The position numbers and the translations under genes were made by a program. A DNA stretch of 64,000 nucleotides, from positions 372,001 to 436,000 of the forward strand of contig AP018180.1 of the NCBI GenBank assembly GCA_002368155.1, in the 5' to 3' direction. A model generated the notes under the pieces. That model searched no databases and was not told the origin of the DNA. It saw nothing but the letters and a program-made list of their open reading frames with translations. The stretch comes from Nostoc carneum NIES-2107 (GTDB taxonomy: Bacteria > Cyanobacteriota > Cyanobacteriia > Cyanobacteriales > Nostocaceae). Below are positions 4,240 through 54,106 of the stretch, piece by piece. Position 1 is the first letter of the stretch. The number at the start of each line of letters is the position of its first letter.

Positions 4240-7200
4240 ATGAACAACGGCAAAGTTAGAATCTATGAATTATCAAAGGAATTAAATTTGGATAACAAAG
4301 AGCTATTAGCAATATGCGACCAGCTCAATATCGCGGTCAAAAGCCATAGCAGTACAATTTCAGATTCGGAGGCAGAACGCATCCGTTCCGCTGCAGAAAA
4401 ATTCGCAGCAACGAATGGAACGCCTAAAAAAGACACAGGCATCAACACACATCAAGCACATGGGCCACAAGCTGGCTCTCGCAATCGACCTGCACCACCA
4501 CCTCACAAACAAGAAATTTTGGAAATTCGTAAACCCAAAATATTGAGAAATCCTAACTCTAACGCCCCAGAGGCATCAGTTAATACTAGTACCCCATCTG
4601 CTTTGTCTGAAGCTAATCCTCCTTCACCTCCAAAGCCCTTCGCTACACAAGTCTCACCCATGCAGCCGACGGCACCAACTCGACCCGTACCCCGGAATCA
4701 ATCAGAGACCCCACAGCAACCAGCTGTTAAAAATGCGGATACAACGCCTAATGCCCAACCGAAAGAAAAAATAGTTGGGGAAAAGCCAGAAAAACCAGTT
4801 TCAGCTAAACCTAGGCAAGAAAAACCGCCAAAACCTCAACTAGTTGCGCCACCAGCCAGACCGGTATCTGAAGCACCAGCGATCGAGCCGCTGAGTCAGG
4901 CAGACAAACCAATTCTCAAACGCGAACGCCCCAAACGCAGCGAAGAAGAACGCGAGCAAATTAAGCCCAGGGCAGCCAAACCAGGCACAGACCCAACTGC
5001 ACAGCCTACACCACAAAAACAGGCTCGTCCTACACCCGGCCCAGTTAAACCAGAACAAAGAGGAAATCGTGCTCCAGGTGGAGCACCATTCGCCGATTCT
5101 CAACGGCCCAGCAGACCAGTTCGTCCCAGCGAATCTGTAGCAGCAATGCCCATTGCTACGCCACCCAGACCTATGCAAGGCGGAGCAGGGAAAGCAGCAG
5201 CAACAACAACACTGGATGAAGCGATTCCTGCTGACATCCTTGATTTGAAACGCCCCACACCACCTCGTCCAGCCAAAGGTGGGAAAAAGTGGCAGGAAGA
5301 AGAAATAATTGATGAAATTAAAGAAAAATCTGGCAAGGCTGGTGTAAAAGGTAAGCGAGTCAAGCCGCTCTTAGAGGATGATTTTGAGGAAGACGATTTA
5401 CTGGATGAAGAAGGTCTGGAAATTCCAGCTACAGTCCAGGTGAGCCTTTCCATCGCTCGTCCTCCCAAACCAAAATCAACAAGGCCTGCACAACAACCTG
5501 CAATAGCTGTTGCTAGCCCCAACACTAAAGGGAGAAAATCTGCTGCCACTAACCGCGATCAAAACCGTCGCCAAGAAGTAGAAACCAAGCGTGAGCGGCC
5601 AGAAAAATTGGTGGTCACCGGGCCAATGACAGTGCAAGAACTGGCGGATGCCTTAGCGATCGCGGATACAGAGATTGTGAAAATCCTGTTCCTCAAAGGT
5701 ATGGCAGTGAGCATCACCCAAAATCTGGATGTGCCAACCATTACCTTAATCTGCACCGATTTAGAAGTAGCAGTTGAAACCGCCGAGCCAGAAGCAGAAG
5801 CCCGCAAAGTCACAGAAATGCTGGATCTGGCAGATATGGAAAATCTCCATCGCCGTCCACCAGTAGTGACCATTATGGGTCACGTAGACCACGGGAAAAC
5901 CACCTTGCTGGACTCGATCCGCAAAACTAAAGTGGCTGCTGGCGAAGCTGGTGGGATCACTCAGCATATTGGCGCATACCATGTGGATATCGAACATGAA
6001 GGTAAACCACAGCAAATCGTTTTCCTCGATACCCCTGGTCACGAAGCATTCACCGCTATGCGGGCAAGAGGAGCAAGAGTTACAGATATTGCCGTTTTGG
6101 TAGTAGCTGCTGATGATGGTGTACGTCCTCAAACCATTGAAGCCATCAGTCACGCTCAGGCTGCGGGAGTGCCCATTGTTGTAGCCATTAACAAAATTGA
6201 CAAAGAAGGCGCACAACCAGAGCGGGTAAAACAAGAACTTACCAACTACGGTCTAACAGCAGAAGACTGGGGTGGTGAAACAATTATGGTTCCTGTAAGT
6301 GCAATCAAGGGAGAGAACCTCGATACACTCCTAGAAATGATTCTGCTGGTCGCAGAAGTTGCCGAACTATCTGCCAACCCAGACCGAGAGGCAAAAGGAA
6401 CTGTCATTGAAGCACACTTGGATAAAGCCAAGGGCGCAGTTGCTACCTTGCTGATTCAAAATGGCACCCTGCATGTTGGAGATATGTTGGTAGCTGGCTC
6501 CGCATTTGGTAAAGTGCGGGCTATGGTCGATGACAGAGGTAGAAGAGTAGAAGTTGCTAGTCCTTCCTTTGCTGTTGAAGTCTTAGGGTTGAGCGATGTG
6601 CCAGCCGCAGGTGATGAATTTGAGGCCTTCGAGAACGAAAAAGAAGCACGCGCTCTCGCCAGCGATCGCGCCGACAAACAACGTCAATCCCGACTCTTAC
6701 AGGGACGCGTTACCCTCACAACCCTGTCAGCTCAAGCACAAGAAGGCGAGTTGAAAGAACTCAACTTGATCCTGAAAGCAGACGTACAAGGTTCCGTGGA
6801 AGCGATTGTGGGATCGCTCAGACAAATCCCCCAAAACGAAGTCCAAATCCGGATGCTGTTAGCAACTGCTGGCGAAATCACCGAAACAGATATCGACTTA
6901 GCTGCTGCTAGTAACGCCGTCATTATTGGCTTTAACACCACCTACGCTAGTGGAGCTAGACAAGCTGCTGATGAAGCGGGTGTAGATGTACGGGAATACA
7001 ACATCATCTACAAACTCCTCGAAGATATTCAAGGAGCCTTGGAAGGTCTGTTGGAACCCGAATTGGTGGAAGAACCCTTAGGTCAAACCGAAGTCCGTGC
7101 TGTCTTCCCAGTTGGTCGCGGTGCGGTTGCTGGTTGTTATGTACAATCTGGCAAACTTATTCGTAACTGCAAAGTGCGGGTACGTCGTAGCGGTAAGGTA

Positions 7201-42283: not shown

Positions 42284-44099
<1,816 letters not shown>

Positions 44100-44303: not shown

Positions 44304-46547
44304 TTAATTTACAGTATTTGAAGACTTTGGTTGATTTCGCATTTTTTCAAAACTAAAGGCTGCTGCTCCAAATGTTACTAATAGCACTCCTAAAATTTGT
44401 GCTACTTCTAAATTTTCTTGAATGAGCAATCCAGCAAAAATTACAGTGAGGAATGGTACACTAGCTCCGATAATTGCAGAACGGATAGCACCAAGTTGCC
44501 GGATACCAACATTATTGACTACATAACCAAAGAGAGTTAGTACACCCAAAATAAATGCACTTAAAATAATTTCTAACAACTTATTAGGATTAAATACTAA
44601 ACCTAAGTCTCCAGGTAATGGCACCATTAAACCGATGAAGCTTAACAGCAACATGGTAGCAAAGTTAATTAAGGTAAAAGATACTGGATGTACTTTACTA
44701 GCGCATATTCTTGTGAGGATGACGTAAACAGCAAAAGCGATTCCCGACATAATTGCGGTGGTACTTCCCAGGGGAACATTACCTAGAGTTGAACTAGTAG
44801 CACCGCCTAACACTAGTAATTCTCCGCAGAACAGTGCGCCCATCGCCCCATAACGGAATACATTAGGACGATCGCGGAATAGTAACCAAGCCAAAAGACT
44901 GCTAATTAGAGGATAGATAAAGAAAAGTGCGATCGCCATCCCTGTGGTAACTTGGCCGATAGCAATATAGATCAGCACTTGCGATAAAAACAAAAAGCAT
45001 CCACTAGCAATTGATAACTGCAAAACCTTCCTGGTTTTGGAATTATCAGGATCAGAATTTCCTTTGAATGAAGCAAACAAATTTTGCAAGTCTTGCCAAA
45101 CTGGTGGATGCATCATCGGCGCTAAGAGTAACATTAGTGGTACAACCACCAGCAACCTGAGCATTAAAATTAAGAGCGTATTGCCTAAAGTTGGCACAAG
45201 CAAACGGTCTACTTCAACTACTCCCAAAATCGCCCCATCTTGGAAAATCACTTTAATTGCGACGTTATAAAGTGATGACACTACTGCTGACAATACTATC
45301 AGCAAGAAACCTATTTGGATAGTTGATAGCTTAGAGGAGTTAGATAAATTCAGCGATGGTGGCTTGATTTCCTGCTTGGGCGATCGCACTACAGGTTCCG
45401 GCTGATTTTCGCTCTCCGATAAGTTATTAGAGAGGACAGAAATTGGCTCATCTGAGTTGCTGGTAAATGGCGCGGGTGTTTCCTCTGGTTGAGTTTCACT
45501 TTCCGATAAGCTATTAAAGAAAACTGAAATTTCCTCCTCATCAGCATTACTTGTTGACGGTGGAGGTGTAGCATCTGGTGAGGGAACAGTGGGTTCCGCT
45601 GTCGTTTCGCTTTCAAAGAAGTAACTAGAACGAAAAGACATTGGTTCCGTTTCATTTTCGTTTTCTTTTAAAGATGCGTCTGCTTGTTGCGCCTCAAACT
45701 CTAACTGTGATGTAGTTTGATTTTGTGAACCCTCTACAGGGATAGTATTAAGTGGTTCGACAGCTTGACTATTGATTCCTGCTGGTTGTGAATAACTCTC
45801 CCAAGAACCTTTTTGTTCTTCAGCAGGTTGCAACACTGTGGGGGGTGATACGTTCGCTACTGGTGTTTCAGCAGGTTGCAAGATGGTGGGTAATGATACT
45901 GTAGGTGCTGGCTCTTGAGCAGGTTGCAAAACAGTAGGTGGCGATACTTGTACTGTTGTGAGGGGAGTTTTGGCAATGGTTTTTTCCAGACCTTGCAACC
46001 GATTAATTAACTCCGCTATGATGTATTCCCCTTGCTGTTGTTGATTCTGCATCCGAGACAACTGCTGAGAAATATTGCTTTGATAATTCTTTAACTCTTG
46101 TTGCAATGAGTTAAAGGTAATGGTAAGAGTATCATCTAAAGAGCCAAGCATTTGCTCTACTTTTTCACCATTATCTGTCTGGCTTGCGCCTAATGCAGGT
46201 CTTTGGGAAGAATTACTTTCTATGGCTTCGTTAGCTAAAGTTGTCAGGGAGGATTGCAGTTGAGAAGAGATATGCTTCGCCAAAGCTTCTGCTAATTGAC
46301 GGATTAACACCTGCTGCTCGGTAATTTGGCGTACCTGTTGTAACTGTTCTTTTTCTTCCTGCAGCCGTTGAATATCATCTCCTAAACGGTTTTTCTCCGC
46401 CTGAAGTCGCTTTACCTCTTCTTGTAATGATCGCAGCACGTGCTGTTGAAGATTTTCCAAATCCTCAACCACAGCCCACAGAGCATTTTCGGCTGCTCTG
46501 GATAAATCACCTCTGGCTCTGTCTGGTTGCTTCTCAAATCGCCCCAT
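44304..46547 (-). CDS. Coiled-coil/EamA (DMT) transporter fusion
   Basis: 747 residues in three parts. Residues 20-200 are a long coiled coil (LENLQQHVLRSLQEEVKRLQAEKNRL onward) of cytosolic type. Residues 200-410 are a disordered Pro/Ser/Glu linker with internal repeats (three near-copies of PPTVLQPAQEP-type sequence and two of ISVFFNSLSESETQPEE-type). Residues 415-735 are ten membrane helices forming two EamA halves (IYIAIGQVTTGMAIALFFIYPLISSLLAWLLF; FGYVVNNVGIRQLGAIRSAIIGASVPFLTVIFAGLLI), a drug/metabolite transporter. Such a large N-terminal extension is unusual. Substrate unknown. Confidence 0.88.
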   Translation of the reverse strand: MGRFEKQPDRARGDLSRAAENALWAVVEDLENLQQHVLRSLQEEVKRLQAEKNRLGDDIQRLQEEKEQLQQVRQITEQQVLIRQLAEALAKHISSQLQSSLTTLANEAIESNSSQRPALGASQTDNGEKVEQMLGSLDDTLTITFNSLQQELKNYQSNISQQLSRMQNQQQQGEYIIAELINRLQGLEKTIAKTPLTTVQVSPPTVLQPAQEPAPTVSLPTILQPAETPVANVSPPTVLQPAEEQKGSWESYSQPAGINSQAVEPLNTIPVEGSQNQTTSQLEFEAQQADASLKENENETEPMSFRSSYFFESETTAEPTVPSPDATPPPSTSNADEEEISVFFNSLSESETQPEETPAPFTSNSDEPISVLSNNLSESENQPEPVVRSPKQEIKPPSLNLSNSSKLSTIQIGFLLIVLSAVVSSLYNVAIKVIFQDGAILGVVEVDRLLVPTLGNTLLILMLRLLVVVPLMLLLAPMMHPPVWQDLQNLFASFKGNSDPDNSKTRKVLQLSIASGCFLFLSQVLIYIAIGQVTTGMAIALFFIYPLISSLLAWLLFRDRPNVFRYGAMGALFCGELLVLGGATSSTLGNVPLGSTTAIMSGIAFAVYVILTRICASKVHPVSFTLINFATMLLLSFIGLMVPLPGDLGLVFNPNKLLEIILSAFILGVLTLFGYVVNNVGIRQLGAIRSAIIGASVPFLTVIFAGLLIQENLEVAQILGVLLVTFGAAAFSFEKMRNQPKSSNTVN

Positions 46548-47487: not shown

Positions 47488-48870
47488 TCACAGAAAAATC
47501 ATCCGGACAAGACTAAATATAGCGGCGCTGAGAACTGCACTCGCGGGAACTGTAATTACCCATGCAGCAGCAATTCCTTTGAGGGTTTGGAATTGAATCG
47601 ATTTGATATTTTGCACTAGTCCAATGCCAACTACACCACCCACAAGAGCGTGAGAGGTGGATACAGGTAACCCTAAACGAGAGGCAAGTAATATAGTCGT
47701 GGCGGTTGCGAGTTCCGCACAGAAGCCACTGCTAGGTTGCAAAGAAATAATATTTTCGCCAATGGTGGCAATGACTTTTTTGCCCCAGATGGCTAAACCC
47801 CCCACAATGCCGATACCACCAAGGATTAAAATCCATAAGGGGATGGTAATACCATTTATCGGTACGCTGCCAGTCTGATTAATATAAACGATCGCAGCTA
47901 GAGGCGCGATCGCATTCCCCACATCATTAGAACCATGAGCAAAGGCGACAAAGCAAGCGCTAAGTAATTGGAAGCGAGCAAATAAGCGTTCGGTGGGATT
48001 GGGGATTGGGGAACTCGGGGCCCCCTCTGGGGATAAGGGGTAATGGGGACTGGGGACTGGGGATTGGGGATTAGGGATTGGGGATTGAGGATTGGGGATT
48101 GGGGATTGGGGATTGGGGACTGGGGACTGGGGACTGGGAACTGGGGATTTATGTCCTAATTGGTTCCAGCTATAGAAGGTGAGTCCAACTGCGGCTACTG
48201 CGCCAGTGAAGATGGGAATATCGTAAGCGGGGAGATTTAAGCCAATTTGGTTAATTAAATAATTGCTTAAAGGTTGAGTCAGCGATGGGAGGACAATCAC
48301 GCCAAATGTGCCTATGAGTAGCGCACTCAACCAAGGAAGCCACTCATTTAACTGCACCAGTTGATTTGGTTGGTCTAAAATCCAGCGCTTGATTTGACTG
48401 TAGAATAAAGCCGCGATCGCGCCGCTAATTAATGGCGTTAAAATCCAGCCAATGGTAATTGAGCCAATGGATGACCAATCTATTGCACCAACTCCCAAAG
48501 CTACCCAACTAAAACCTGCGATCGCACCGACTACTGCATGAGATGAGGATACAGGTAAACCCCGCGATGTGGCAATTTGCAGCCATACCCCAGAGGCTAG
48601 CAACACCGTCACCATTCCCATAACCAAAATTTGGGGCGTAGCCGCAAATAAGGCGGGGTTAGCAACTTTTGTTGCTAGCGTTTCCGTTACCTCGTGCCCA
48701 AACAATACAGCACCTGCAAACTCTAACGTCCCAGCAATAATTAACGCCTGTTTCAAGGTGACAGCTTTGGAACCGACAGAGGTTCCCATTGCGTTAGCAA
48801 CATCATTAGCACCGAGATTAAAGGCGACGTAGAAAGCGAGTAAGGCGACGATTGCGAGGGTGATGGGCAT
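47488..48870 (-). CDS. PiT family inorganic phosphate permease
   Basis: 460 residues with about ten membrane helices and the duplicated PiT signatures: [21 protein letters not shown] at the N-terminus and [17 protein letters not shown] in the second half, plus [13 protein letters not shown] and [13 protein letters not shown]. It should carry phosphate (or metal-phosphate) with H+ or Na+. The frame runs 25 codons further up, but that part is translated repeat DNA, so the ATG at 48870 is chosen. The loop between the two halves contains a 50-residue Pro-rich insert encoded by heptad repeats. Confidence 0.92.
47995..48150. repeat. STRR heptads inside the PiT coding sequence
   Basis: GGGGATT/GGGGACT heptads, about 15 units with one interruption, lie within the permease frame. 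Three heptads make seven codons, so the repeat reads on the minus strand as tandem [14 protein letters not shown] units. The insert sits in the central cytoplasmic loop and does not break the frame. Confidence 0.9.
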
Positions 48871-49020
48871 TTTTTGGGGATTGGGGAAAAGGGGACTGGG
48901 GATTGGGGACTGGGGATTGGGGAAAAGGGGAAAGGGGAATAACAAACAGCAAATGACAAATTACGAATGACAAACGCCAATTACCTATTACCTATTACCC
49001 ATTACCTATTACCTATGACC
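48871..49020. repeat. STRR cluster upstream of PiT gene
   Basis: The same GGGGATT/GGGGACT heptads (48876-48945) are followed by TTACCTA units (48981-49018). The tract begins a few bases before the PiT start codon on its strand, so the leader is repeat, as for the BrkB gene. Confidence 0.9.
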
Positions 49021-49035
49021 GAATGACACTTTTAT

Positions 49036-50082
49036 TTACGGATAAATCAAGATTTTATAGGTTTCTGGTGTGGGGGCGATCGCTTGATCGACGGCGGCTG
49101 ATAAATTTTGTAGGGGATAGCGATCGCTAATTAATGCTTGTACATTAATCCTGCGATTAAATACTATATCTGCTGAGAGATTTTGCAGGCGATAGGATGA
49201 ACTATAACTGCCCATTAAGTCAATTTCTCGGCGATACAGCAGATTTGGGTTGATGGGAATTTGTACTTCGTCGGGGAACTCTGCGAAAAAGAGAATTTTG
49301 CCACCTTTACGAGTGCAATCCAAGGCTTGAAAGAATGCTTTATCGCTGGGAACGGCTAGTAAGGTGACATCAACACCCATTCCACCAGTGATTGCATGAA
49401 TTTTTGCTGGTAAATCGGGATCGCGAGGATCAAAAGCAGCTTCCGCGCCGAGATTTAAAGCTTTTTCAATTCTAGAAGGTAATAAATCGGTAGCGATCGC
49501 TCTCGCACCGAAATACTTGACTAACATGACAAACATTAAGCCAATAGGCCCCGCACCAGTAATCAACACGGTTTGTCCCGGTGCAATTTGGGCTTTTTTG
49601 ACGGCTTTTAAGCAGCAGTTAGTCGGTTCAACAAAACTTGCTTCTTCAAAACTAATATCATCGGGAATGGGAATTAACCCGCCATTTTGCACGATATGTC
49701 CTGGTACTTTGACATATTCTGCAAAACCGCCGCCACTGGCGTTAAATCCGGCTGTGGTGGAGATGTTTTTATAAACATCACACATGGAATAATTTTCATT
49801 GAGGCAGTAGGCGCAACGCATACAGGGAATATGGTGCATTACCGCTACCCTTTGTCCCACTTGCCAACCTTTTACCTCAGAACCCACAGATGCGATCGTT
49901 CCCGCCGTTTCATGTCCAAAAATCCGCGGTGGTTCGTACAAGGGATAACGAATTTTTTTAATATCGGATTGACACAATCCTACTACCTGAACCTGAACCA
50001 GCACTTCATCCGGTTCCAGAGTCGGTACTGGGATTTCTTCGTAGGAAAGTTGATTTACGCCTCTAAATACCTGTGCTTTCAC
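49036..50082 (-). CDS. Zinc-dependent alcohol/polyol dehydrogenase
   Basis: 348 residues of the medium-chain dehydrogenase family, starting at GTG. The catalytic zinc site is C37 and H57-E58 (GHETAG); the structural zinc cysteines are C87, C90, C93 and C101 (CMRCAYCLNENYSMC). The NAD(P) fold is at VLITGAGPIGLMFVMLVKYFGA. Sequence resembles the sorbitol/threonine dehydrogenase branch. A cyanobacterial substrate is not evident. Confidence 0.9.
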   Translation of the reverse strand: MKAQVFRGVNQLSYEEIPVPTLEPDEVLVQVQVVGLCQSDIKKIRYPLYEPPRIFGHETAGTIASVGSEVKGWQVGQRVAVMHHIPCMRCAYCLNENYSMCDVYKNISTTAGFNASGGGFAEYVKVPGHIVQNGGLIPIPDDISFEEASFVEPTNCCLKAVKKAQIAPGQTVLITGAGPIGLMFVMLVKYFGARAIATDLLPSRIEKALNLGAEAAFDPRDPDLPAKIHAITGGMGVDVTLLAVPSDKAFFQALDCTRKGGKILFFAEFPDEVQIPINPNLLYRREIDLMGSYSSSYRLQNLSADIVFNRRINVQALISDRYPLQNLSAAVDQAIAPTPETYKILIYP

Positions 50083-50717: not shown

Positions 50718-51161
50718 TTACTCGTAAAAGCCCAACTCTTGACTTGCTGCAATTAATTCACCTAACAATTTCCTACGCTTTTCATCTCGTTGCTGTTTAT
50801 AATTATTTAAATCATCGAAATTTACTCGGCGATGAGAACCAACTTGTATATATGGAATCTCCCCTTGTTCTAACAAATTTATTAAATAGGGGCGTGATAC
50901 GTTGAGAAAATTAGCTGCTTGTTGTGTTGTCAGTTCTCTTTCTTCAGGAACTATAGCTACCGTCTGACCTAATGCCATTTTATGCACAACTTTACATATA
51001 GCTTGATACACAGATTTGGGAATGGATATTTGTTCTCCATTTGCTAATGCTAGTTTTACTCTTGAACCTTCCTTATTTAATATGTGTGCCAGTTCTTTGA
51101 TAGACTGGGCTTCTTGCTCTGACGGTATGACTAAATCTAAGTGTTGGTTTCGCTCAAACAT
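50718..51161 (-). CDS. Excisionase-type HTH DNA-binding protein
   Basis: 147 residues. The N-terminal 75 residues are a helical/oligomerisation region, and the C-terminal part is a MerR/excisionase HTH (ELTTQQAANFLNVSRPYLINLLEQGEIPYIQVGSHRRVNFDDLNNYKQQRD). In cyanobacteria such proteins often act as the antitoxin before a PIN-domain toxin. Here the next gene is a GNAT acetyltransferase instead. Confidence 0.87.
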   Translation of the reverse strand: MFERNQHLDLVIPSEQEAQSIKELAHILNKEGSRVKLALANGEQISIPKSVYQAICKVVHKMALGQTVAIVPEERELTTQQAANFLNVSRPYLINLLEQGEIPYIQVGSHRRVNFDDLNNYKQQRDEKRRKLLGELIAASQELGFYE

Positions 51162-51288: not shown

Positions 51289-53058
51289 ATGCTGAATCAG
51301 ATATATCAAGCTGATATTTTAGTTGTAGGTGGTGGAGTAGGCGGTACAGCGGCGGCGATTCAAGCGGCGCGGCGTGGGGCGAAAACTATCCTGGTGAGTG
51401 AGTTTGCTTGGTTGGGGGGAATGTTAACCTCTGCTGGCGTATCTGTCCCTGATGGAAATGAATTAGAAGCGTTTCAGACGGGGTTGTGGGGTGAGTTTTT
51501 ACGAGAATTACAGCACCGTCAGCCAGAAGGTTTGGATCACAGCTGGGTAAGCTTTTTTAGTTTCTATCCGCGAGTTGGGGCGCAGATTTTTGCAGATTGG
51601 GTGAAGGAGTTAGCAAATCTGCATTGGATTGCGGGGGAAGTTCCCTTAGAGGTATTGCATGAGGGAAGTTGTGTAACTGGGGTTCGCTTTAGTGATTTTA
51701 TTGTTACAGCCAAAATTACCCTCGATGGGACAGAATTAGGCGATTTATTGGCTTTGGCGGAAATACCTTTTCGTTGGGGTTGGGAATGGCGATCGCAATG
51801 GGGAGAACTTAGCGCCCCAGAGTCTCCTAATCCTCTCACGGAAAAATACCCTGTACAAGCACCAACGGGGGTGGTGCTAATGCAAGATTTTGGTACAGAT
51901 GTCGCCCCAGAAATTCCGCCAGCGCCGAATTACGATCCATCTAAATTTGCAGGTGCTTGGGATGGTTATGGTGCAGAACAATTTTTGAATTATGGGCGTT
52001 TACCTGGCGGTCTATTAATGCTCAATTGGCCTATCTGCGGTAATGACTATGGCGAAGATTTAGAACGCCTTGTAGAGTCAAAAGCTAGTAGAGATGAGTA
52101 TATCCAAGAATCACGCTGGCATAGTCAAAATTTTGCCCATTACATCCAAAATCAGGTTGGTAGGCGCTACGGTTTAGCAACACAGGTGTTTCCCCATTCG
52201 CCCACAGCTTTTGCTTTGCATCCTTATTACCGGGAAAGTCGCCGCTTGGTGGGAATGACAACTATTACCGAACAAGATATTTTACCTGTATCTGGGGGTC
52301 AGGTAGCATCATTAAATATAGATGCAATCGCGATCGCAAATTATCCCAACGACCATCATTACCCAGGCTTTAACTTTCCCCTGCAACCTAAATCTATTCG
52401 CTGGGGCGGACGCTGGACGGGGACACCCTTCACAATTCCCTATAGCAGCCTGATTCCTACAACTACAGACGGCTTTTTAGTCTGCGAAAAGAATATTTCT
52501 GTTTCCCATATTGCTAATGGCGCAACTCGATTGCAACCTGTGGTGATGGGTATTGGTCAAGCTGCGGGAATGGCTGCGGCTATGTGCGTTGAGTTGAACT
52601 GTCAACCGCGCAATTTACCAGTGAGGGCGCTACAAATGGCTTTATTAGAAGACAAGCGATCGCCTACGGCAATTATTCCATTGTTCAATTCAACACTTGC
52701 TCATCCTCAGTGGATACGGTCGCAAATAAATTATCTCCACAATCCTGCCAGCTATCCGCTTGATGGTAACTGTCCTGGCTTAATATCATCTCCGTGTAAT
52801 TACGAATCCGCAAATTCAGTATTATCACGGTTGAGTAATTGCTTTACAGGTGTATTTCATCGCTTACATCAGCAAGATTACAGATTCAGCATCATGACAC
52901 CAACAACGCATCAAAAGCAGATTTGGCAGCTTGTAACTTTGCGATCGCACATTGATGAACAACTAAAAGCTTGTCTGGATGGGCAATTGGTGACAGTGTG
53001 GGGTCGTATGAACTCGGCTGGTAATTGGTTACTAGTGGAACATCTTGTGATTGAATAA
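51289..53058 (+). CDS. FAD-dependent oxidoreductase
   Basis: 589 residues. The N-terminus has the dinucleotide-binding motif ADILVVGGGVGGTAAAIQAARRGAKTILVSE, followed by WLGGMLTSAGV; later HPYYRESRRLVGM and a C-terminal FAD motif GATRLQPVVMGIGQAAGMAAAMC. This matches the FAD_oxidored (PF12831) family, whose substrates are mostly unknown. The last 120 residues are a separate small domain without a recognised motif. Confidence 0.87.
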   Translation: MLNQIYQADILVVGGGVGGTAAAIQAARRGAKTILVSEFAWLGGMLTSAGVSVPDGNELEAFQTGLWGEFLRELQHRQPEGLDHSWVSFFSFYPRVGAQIFADWVKELANLHWIAGEVPLEVLHEGSCVTGVRFSDFIVTAKITLDGTELGDLLALAEIPFRWGWEWRSQWGELSAPESPNPLTEKYPVQAPTGVVLMQDFGTDVAPEIPPAPNYDPSKFAGAWDGYGAEQFLNYGRLPGGLLMLNWPICGNDYGEDLERLVESKASRDEYIQESRWHSQNFAHYIQNQVGRRYGLATQVFPHSPTAFALHPYYRESRRLVGMTTITEQDILPVSGGQVASLNIDAIAIANYPNDHHYPGFNFPLQPKSIRWGGRWTGTPFTIPYSSLIPTTTDGFLVCEKNISVSHIANGATRLQPVVMGIGQAAGMAAAMCVELNCQPRNLPVRALQMALLEDKRSPTAIIPLFNSTLAHPQWIRSQINYLHNPASYPLDGNCPGLISSPCNYESANSVLSRLSNCFTGVFHRLHQQDYRFSIMTPTTHQKQIWQLVTLRSHIDEQLKACLDGQLVTVWGRMNSAGNWLLVEHLVIE

Positions 53059-53102
53059 AGTTTATTTTTATTCAGTAAAAAAAAACACGTTTTAGGGATT
53101 TG

Positions 53103-53129
53103 TCCGGATGCAGTAATAAAAACTAAGTA
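53103..53129 (+). promoter_or_regulatory. Candidate developmental (DIF-like) promoter of patX
   Basis: TCCGGA at 53103-53108 followed 15 bp later by TAAGTA (53124-53129) resembles the DIF motif plus a -10 box that marks HetR-dependent, heterocyst-specific starts in Anabaena. It lies 58 bp before the patX ATG. The hexamer also occurs by chance within several genes here, so the call rests on position and on the gene that follows. Confidence 0.5.
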
Positions 53130-53165
53130 GGGAGGAATAAGACAGTTTTAAAATAAACATCTGCT

Positions 53166-53402
53166 ATGCGTGCTGTAGTTTCACTTTTAGCCTCCAGTTT
53201 GGTAGCTGTTTCCCTAGCTATCAACTGTCAAGCTACGATCAATCAATTCTCACGTTTGTTGCCATCCTCATCTGGCTCAGAACAGTTGCTCTCAGCCAGA
53301 CCTAAGCCCAAGCCTAACCAGCCAGAAAAACCTGTACCGCATCGCGGTAGTGGGCGTAGAGAACTGATCGAATCCTACAAAAATGTTCATCCTGCCGTTT
53401 GA
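53166..53402 (+). CDS. patX: PatX-type heterocyst-inhibiting peptide precursor
   Basis: A 78-residue secreted precursor: signal peptide MRAVVSLLASSLVAVSLAINCQA, a Ser/Lys/Pro-rich middle (ARPKPKPNQPEKPVP), then HRGSGR at 59-64 and a short tail. The RGSGR pentapeptide is the active part of PatS/PatX signals that bind HetR and stop neighbouring cells from differentiating. Size, signal peptide, HRGSGR and downstream tail fit PatX rather than PatS, which is much shorter with RGSGR at the very C-terminus. An ATG start is clear but no Shine-Dalgarno is within 20 bp. Confidence 0.85.
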   Translation: MRAVVSLLASSLVAVSLAINCQATINQFSRLLPSSSGSEQLLSARPKPKPNQPEKPVPHRGSGRRELIESYKNVHPAV

Positions 53403-54106
53403 AAATCCAGCAATTTTTTTTGTCTTCGGGGAGTTAAATTACAGACAAATAAGGTGTCGTGCTTCACATACTTTACACAAATTTCTTAGTAAAGATAGCA
53501 CAGTGCATACACATATCAACTCAGCATTTGCCCAGTATTTGCTCCGTAAGGTGTGTATACATAATCTGATTAAACCCTGAGGTTTAGAATGTACACCAAC
53601 CAGGTTCCTGTATTAATCGCATCACCAACTCCTCAAAAGCTACGCTTACTGCTTCTAACTCCTGTTATCGCCAGAATTTGATATAAGGTTATCGGTTGAG
53701 ATCAAGGGTTTTTAATTCTGTTCCAGTTAAAGTCATTTACCAGGCCTATCCATACTCATATACCGAAACCTGAATGAAAATGGCTGAAAAGCTTATATTC
53801 ATTGGTTTTTGAATTATAAATTTTGTAGAAATCTATAAGCTGACTTCTCATAGAGTATTTTCAATCTGTGTAGCGGCGTTTTTGCCATAAGCCAAGATAA
53901 AAGGAAAGACTTGGTATTAAGTTCACCCTTGTCTGTCAATTTGTAGTGGGCAAACAAGGCTGTTTGACTTGTGCTGTGGTTTTTTCACAAGAGAGTCATA
54001 AGGGCTAGGCTAGGTCTAGAGACGAGTATTTTTTACTCAACAATCTTGTACAGACGCGATTAATCGCGTCTGTTGCAACTCCTGACTCAGCACTAGATAA
54101 ATCACA
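53403..54106. other. Intergenic region after patX
   Basis: 704 bases with no supported gene. A small hairpin TAAACC-CTGA-GGTTTA at 53571-53586 may end the patX transcript. The 54052 palindrome lies at the right end. A frame at 53383-53580 overlaps the patX end and has no protein-like features. Confidence 0.45.
54052..54071. repeat. 20-bp perfect palindrome, copy 2
   Basis: Identical to 42241-42260 (AGACGCGATTAATCGCGTCT). A half-site, AAATCGCGTCTA, appears near 63235. It lies 35 bp before the deacetylase start. Confidence 0.8.

Follow-up and report, generated by a model that had tools for sequence, protein, structure and literature searches.

The patX gene of Nostoc carneum NIES-2107 and its DIF1-type promoter, compared with hetR and a patS candidate of the same genome

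We analysed a stretch of 64,000 nucleotides of Nostoc carneum NIES-2107 (contig AP018180.1, positions 372,001 to 436,000; hereafter the window), which holds both the regulator gene hetR and the inhibitor gene patX (53166..53402, forward strand). Very probably, the patX of this Nostoc-like heterocyst former is driven by a DIF1-type composite promoter and encodes an exported, trimmed peptide that inhibits HetR. Five parts of this picture come from the sequences themselves: the identity of the gene, the fixed geometry of its promoter, a C-terminal tail behind the peptide, the linkage with hetR, and a hetR and a patS candidate that have no TCCGGA (the DIF1 motif) in the upstream DNA searched. The dependence on HetZ, the export, the processing and the binding to HetR are transferred from work on Nostoc 7120 and would have to hold for this strain as well. 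In the mechanism as we propose it (drawn from PMC12756182, PMC7761841 and PMC7377430), patX would be switched on in cells starting heterocyst differentiation by a promoter that combines an NtcA-type box, TCCGGA at -35 and TAAGTA at -10, with activation probably running through HetZ. The signal sequence would then carry PatX out of the cytoplasm, where a peptidase (PatP in Nostoc 7120) would trim it; the resulting (H)RGSGR peptide would reach neighbouring cells, bind HetR and block its binding to DNA. PatX, the DIF1 promoter of its gene and the inhibition of HetR have been published before, and the gene is an ordinary and well conserved one. Added here are a hetR DIF1 site limited to one genus, a patS lacking DIF1 in this strain and its sister, a tight pairing of patX with an oxidoreductase gene, and PatX proteins without a tail outside the Nostocaceae.

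The open reading frame at 53166..53402 encodes 78 residues (translation MRAVVSLLASSLVAVSLAINCQATINQFSRLLPSSSGSEQLLSARPKPKPNQPEKPVPHRGSGRRELIESYKNVHPAV, C-terminal end ...HRGSGRRELIESYKNVHPAV) and its identity is PatX: the NCBIfam model NF047413 (heterocyst-inhibiting protein PatX) scores 88.6 bits (cut-off 30), and no Pfam model matches at E<=0.001. The closest named relatives in the scan come from Nostoc linckia FACHB-104 and Calothrix membranacea FACHB-236 (99% identity), followed by Nostoc sp. T09 (73%). Residues 59-64 are the hexapeptide HRGSGR (53340..53357). At the other end the protein is hydrophobic (MRAVVSLLASSLVAVSLAINCQA), and approximately residues 1-23 (about 53166..53234) form a likely signal sequence; export of PatX has been reported for Nostoc 7120 (PMC12756182), and by analogy this PatX may leave the cell by a Sec signal too. 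A structure model from the single sequence has one helix spanning residues 2-31 and another in the tail (63-74), but its confidence is low (mean predicted local distance difference test score 69.6) and it adds little. A preliminary description, made from the letters of the window, had proposed a patX-type gene for a 78-residue protein with a signal peptide and HRGSGR, preceded by TCCGGA and TAAGTA in a DIF-like arrangement. These points hold, with the hydrophobic N-terminus as the likely signal sequence.

With PatX (asl2332) of Anabaena/Nostoc PCC 7120 the protein shares the hydrophobic N-terminus (exported in 7120), an HRG(S/T)GR near the C-terminus, a DIF1 promoter and a hetR in the same genome, whereas the pentapeptide is RGSGR here and RGTGR in 7120. 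It also carries the RGSGR of HetR inhibitors, as PatS does. PatS of 7120, however, has 17 residues (PMC12756182) and ends at RGSGR, while the present frame has a long hydrophobic N-terminus and continues for 14 residues beyond the pentapeptide. We considered PatS as an identity for the frame and rejected it, as 14 residues follow RGSGR where a short peptide ending there is expected; the genome has a separate patS candidate. When all six frames of the window were scanned for RG[ST]GR, a single further match appeared, an RGTGR near 4694 on the minus strand whose frame spans about 65 codons. No plasmid record matched window positions 51289-53500 (near mode).

Conservation was assessed in a draw of 388 genomes of the order, including 71 Nostocaceae, with 14 control genomes searched alongside for NF047413. 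This model matches 194 of the 388 at E<=0.01 (168 above its cut-off) and none of the controls. Profile A1, built from seven sequences, matches 92 (68 Nostocaceae and 24 others), and hetR is matched in 236. Within the 71 Nostocaceae, profile A1 finds PatX in 68, NF047413 (E<=0.01) in 69 and hetR is found in all 71; the genome with PatX by NF047413 only (G368) is excluded from all counts on 68 genomes. The promoter survey covers 70 loci, namely the 68 Nostocaceae genomes, L071 (a second copy that is degenerate) and L079 (a locus from outside the family). Two weak matches in their own genomes (L002, L003) are excluded from every count. RG[ST]GR is present in 69 of the 70 loci; the remaining one has RGGGR and is the degenerate copy (G327:C66:6200-7350), which also lacks both an ATG near the aligned start and an upstream TCCGGA. 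Two further loci, L077 and L078 (genomes G295 and G363), encode a 119-residue PatX in which some 44 additional residues separate the signal sequence from HRGSGR.

TCCGGA (53103..53108, forward strand, near the -35 position) stands 57 nt before the patX ATG, and a spacer of 15 bp separates it from the -10-like TAAGTA (53124..53129), which by eye is conserved in the lists of loci. TCCGGA occurs within 110 nt of the patX start in 68 of the 70 loci (67 of the 68 Nostocaceae genomes plus L079). The distance is exactly 57 nt in 61 of the 70 and 56-60 nt in 67 of the 68 Nostocaceae genomes, so that the conservation of the box among related genomes, put forward earlier as a check, is borne out. In the window as a whole the motif is not above chance (7 observed, 7.88 expected); we take the copy at patX as real because its position is fixed across loci, not because of its frequency. 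Since DIF1 is centred near -35 according to PMC7377430, transcription is predicted to start at about 53136-53140, within the region between the -10-like box and the ATG (53130..53165) that contains the conserved 5' leader. Further upstream an NtcA-type box, GTAAAAAAAAACAC (53075..53088, forward strand), is one base off GTA-N8-TAC, in which it differs from its counterpart in PCC 7120. A perfect GTA-N8-TAC is found upstream of patX in 52 of the 70 loci and, among the 51 that have both, precedes TCCGGA by 14 bp in 42. The 2018 abstract on PatX reportedly mentions an apparent NtcA site upstream of patX in heterocyst formers.

The leader and the first eight codons of patX initially looked frozen as well (the codon of Arg2, for instance, is CGT in 65 of 71 distinct sequences), and a conserved RNA element at the patX start was therefore a candidate. 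This candidate was rejected, given that genes of the same cluster have similar codon conservation and no common fold was found. In codons 2-9 the fraction of identical codons is 0.79 for patX (n=37), against 0.82 for hetR (23), 0.87 for the EamA-domain gene (22), 0.80 for the alcohol dehydrogenase gene (ADH, 21) and 0.65 for the flavin adenine dinucleotide (FAD)-dependent oxidoreductase gene (32). Per block of 10 nt, leader conservation is higher for patX (0.67-0.77) than for hetR (0.41-0.62) and the FAD gene (0.28-0.38); over the last 20 nt of the leader the EamA (0.77-0.80) and ADH (0.62-0.78) genes are similar to patX. RNAalifold predicts no common structure at the patX start for 47 distinct sequences, and Rfam gives nothing at gathering scores in window positions 38000-60000. 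L060 and L079 were dropped from the survey of the leader and first codons and from RNAalifold; L057 and L071 are absent there and present in the 70-locus survey.

Behind the pentapeptide follows a 14-residue tail, RELIESYKNVHPAV (53358..53399). Between 3 and 43 residues follow the pentapeptide in all 70 loci, exactly 14 of them in 41. A peptide ending in RGSGR would thus need a cut after RGSGR in the Nostocaceae, and some relatives encode that end directly: in 4 of 20 copies from outside the Nostocaceae (L159, L160, L167, L168) RGSGR is the very C-terminus, the same ending as in PatS. The preliminary description had read the tail as implying cleavage on both sides of the pentapeptide by a step not yet clear. 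For the Nostocaceae the first part stands as far as the cut after RGSGR is concerned, but the second cut is not universally required, because these four copies stop at RGSGR. The latter part is partly outdated, since PatP (Alr1666) was reported in 2025 as the PatX peptidase that processes exported PatX (PMC12756182); the exact cuts in vivo are left open in that paper. In the E. coli system used there, two non-tryptic peptides flank HRGTGR, with a cut 27 residues before it. HRGTGR of Nostoc 7120 binds HetR with a dissociation constant of 88 nM and blocks differentiation (PMC12756182).

The hetR gene of the window (42284..43183, reverse strand) has the Pfam domains Peptidase_S48 and HetR_C and scores 626.1 bits with the NCBIfam HetR equivalog (cut-off 489). 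In this genome the 1,400 nt upstream of hetR contain no TCCGGA, and therefore regulator and inhibitor do not share this element here. The region upstream of hetR was compared for 70 Nostocaceae genomes (all of the 71 but G339; starts placed by tblastn). TCCGGA lies within 700 nt in 13 of these regions, and at -307 to -318 in seven; these seven make up genus g2 in the draw, to which the genome of the window does not belong. The other six have it at -360 (G181), -682 (G278) and -670 to -697 (G365, G309, G142, G286), a number near the 5.0 expected by shuffling (an expectation computed with 68 starts placed by pattern). In each of the last four, one site stands in TCCGGAATAGC context, which we take as EamA coding sequence. 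Genus g2 is probably the Anabaena 7120 group, because -307 fits a DIF1 some 35 bp ahead of the hetR start published at -272 (PMC7377430) and because L030 and L059, both of g2, have RGTGR as 7120 does. DIF1 control of hetR as in Anabaena 7120 might then be a trait of one genus and not a general rule, and the restriction of the site to one genus warns against generalising the wiring of that strain.

The patS candidate of the window genome (G000) encodes MLINSSDERGSGR. Genes of this kind were sought by DNA similarity, so that more divergent patS genes will be missed; nine loci, the best matches over the frame out of 176 genomes with any match (the remainder being weaker), were examined. Neither the candidate nor the patS of the sister genome G359 has TCCGGA in 1,558 nt of upstream DNA, while the other seven of the nine have it at -618 to -643. 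The genus has a third genome, G381, in which a DNA similarity search found no match covering the patS frame. G330, a genome with hetR and no PatX match, carries a patS with TCCGGA at -643.

Among hetR, patS and patX of this genome, TCCGGA thus seems to occur only at patX in the upstream DNA searched, a difference from the PCC 7120 system. Given the lack of DIF1 at hetR and patS, this strain and its sister may rely on patX as their main early inhibitor linked to differentiation. A bolder reading, somewhat less likely than not, is that in these two the DIF1 circuit has been reduced to patX among the three genes and that PatX, not PatS, is the main inhibitor in de novo patterning. PatX is regarded as the oldest inhibitor of HetR, with a role that PatS masks in Anabaena 7120 (PMC7761841). 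A patX that alone keeps the DIF1 element predicts a stronger deletion phenotype than in Anabaena 7120, and such a strain would be a better place to see the role of PatX.

Several observations weigh against the mechanism proposed at the outset and the early role given to patX. The NtcA-type box of the window is imperfect (GTA-N8-CAC), and two of the 71 hetR-bearing Nostocaceae genomes (G315, G330) have no PatX match in the NF047413 search. In Leptolyngbya BL0902 the effects of patX on transcripts are reported to be basically independent of hetR (PMC11298460), and a patX mutant of Anabaena 7120 still forms a normal pattern when combined nitrogen is absent (PMC7761841). Moreover, a promoter of another kind, invisible to a motif search, could drive patS in this strain. 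It is quite possible, if somewhat short of an even chance, that patX is only a back-up, with PatS doing the de novo patterning from a non-DIF1 promoter and PatX restraining HetR mainly in nitrogen-replete cells. The genome has a patS candidate that could do so, and in Anabaena 7120 the loss of patX is visible with nitrogen present or patS absent (PMC7761841). A back-up role fits less well with a patS that, like that of the sister genome, lacks the DIF1 site of seven of the nine patS genes and encodes a differing peptide, next to a patX with intact TCCGGA and -10 boxes.

Regulator and inhibitor gene lie 9,982 bp apart in divergent orientation, in agreement with the distance of about 10 kb given earlier. 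The suggestion of a patterning locus drawn from it stands in part: the linkage is real, but it is not the tightest at this locus. That place is taken by the FAD-dependent oxidoreductase gene (51289..53058, forward strand; PF12831), 107 bp upstream of patX. A FAD gene directly 5' of patX on the same strand is found in 66 of the 68 Nostocaceae genomes, whereas hetR is shown within 20 kb of patX in 35 of the 68 (17 of the 28 with a patX contig longer than 3 Mb). From these counts, the FAD gene is the more constant neighbour of patX. No report of the pairing was found in the literature searched, which did not cover the founding PatX paper. In PCC 7120 asl2332 adjoins all2333 in cloned fragments, and PMC7761841 mentions all2333 as a landmark next to asl2332 in the cloning; its identity with the FAD gene is presumed from its position only.

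The gap from the FAD stop to patX is 101-112 bp in 34 of 36 cases, and the pair is kept where hetR is elsewhere. It might be argued that read-through from the FAD gene contributes to patX transcription and would provide vegetative cells with a basal level of PatX; we consider this rather unlikely. The common strand (66 of 66), the constant gap away from hetR and the finding of a terminator-like site in none of the 36 gaps all agree with it. The terminator scan has low power, though, since it finds a site after patX in only one of the 36.

Distances between patX and hetR were compared for 80 patX places, of which the 24 non-Nostocaceae genomes matching the profile contributed 12 (G056 is represented by a copy away from hetR, and G101 has no hetR among the matches listed). 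Six of these 12 have patX upstream of hetR on one strand, at a distance of 0.3-4.8 kb, and in G033, G264 and G234 FAD gene, patX and hetR follow in a row on one strand; other non-Nostocaceae genomes, for example G115 and G101, have no FAD gene beside patX. The present spacing of about 10 kb therefore looks like a rearranged remnant of an older FAD-patX-hetR row, as we infer from these arrangements. We lean towards the linkage being such a leftover without present function. The varying distance within the Nostocaceae is consistent with this (hetR is not shown within 20 kb in 33 of the 68, in some because of separate contigs), but its retention in the 17 of 28 genomes with long contigs may point to selection. 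In Leptolyngbya BL0902 patX is likewise linked to hetR, with a predicted DIF1 promoter (PMC11298460), whereas here the two genes are about 10 kb apart and divergent. Four non-Nostocaceae genomes (G033, G056, G234, G323) have two matches each to the PatX model, one nearer hetR and one elsewhere.

Between hetR and the FAD gene the window follows the common Nostocaceae order of hetR(-), EamA(-), PHO4(-), ADH(-), FAD(+) and patX(+), as seen in a comparison of cluster loci (three of which, L121, L126 and L141, have no patX match). The genes concerned, assigned with Pfam and the cluster loci, are an EamA-domain gene of the conserved hetR-patX cluster (44304..46547), a PHO4 phosphate permease gene (47488..48945) and a zinc alcohol dehydrogenase-like gene (49036..50082), all on the reverse strand. 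A gene for an excisionase-type helix-turn-helix protein (50718..51161, reverse strand; Pfam, NCBIfam and cluster loci) is variably present in the cluster. In L130-L132 the FAD gene, patX, PHO4, EamA and hetR all lie on one strand.
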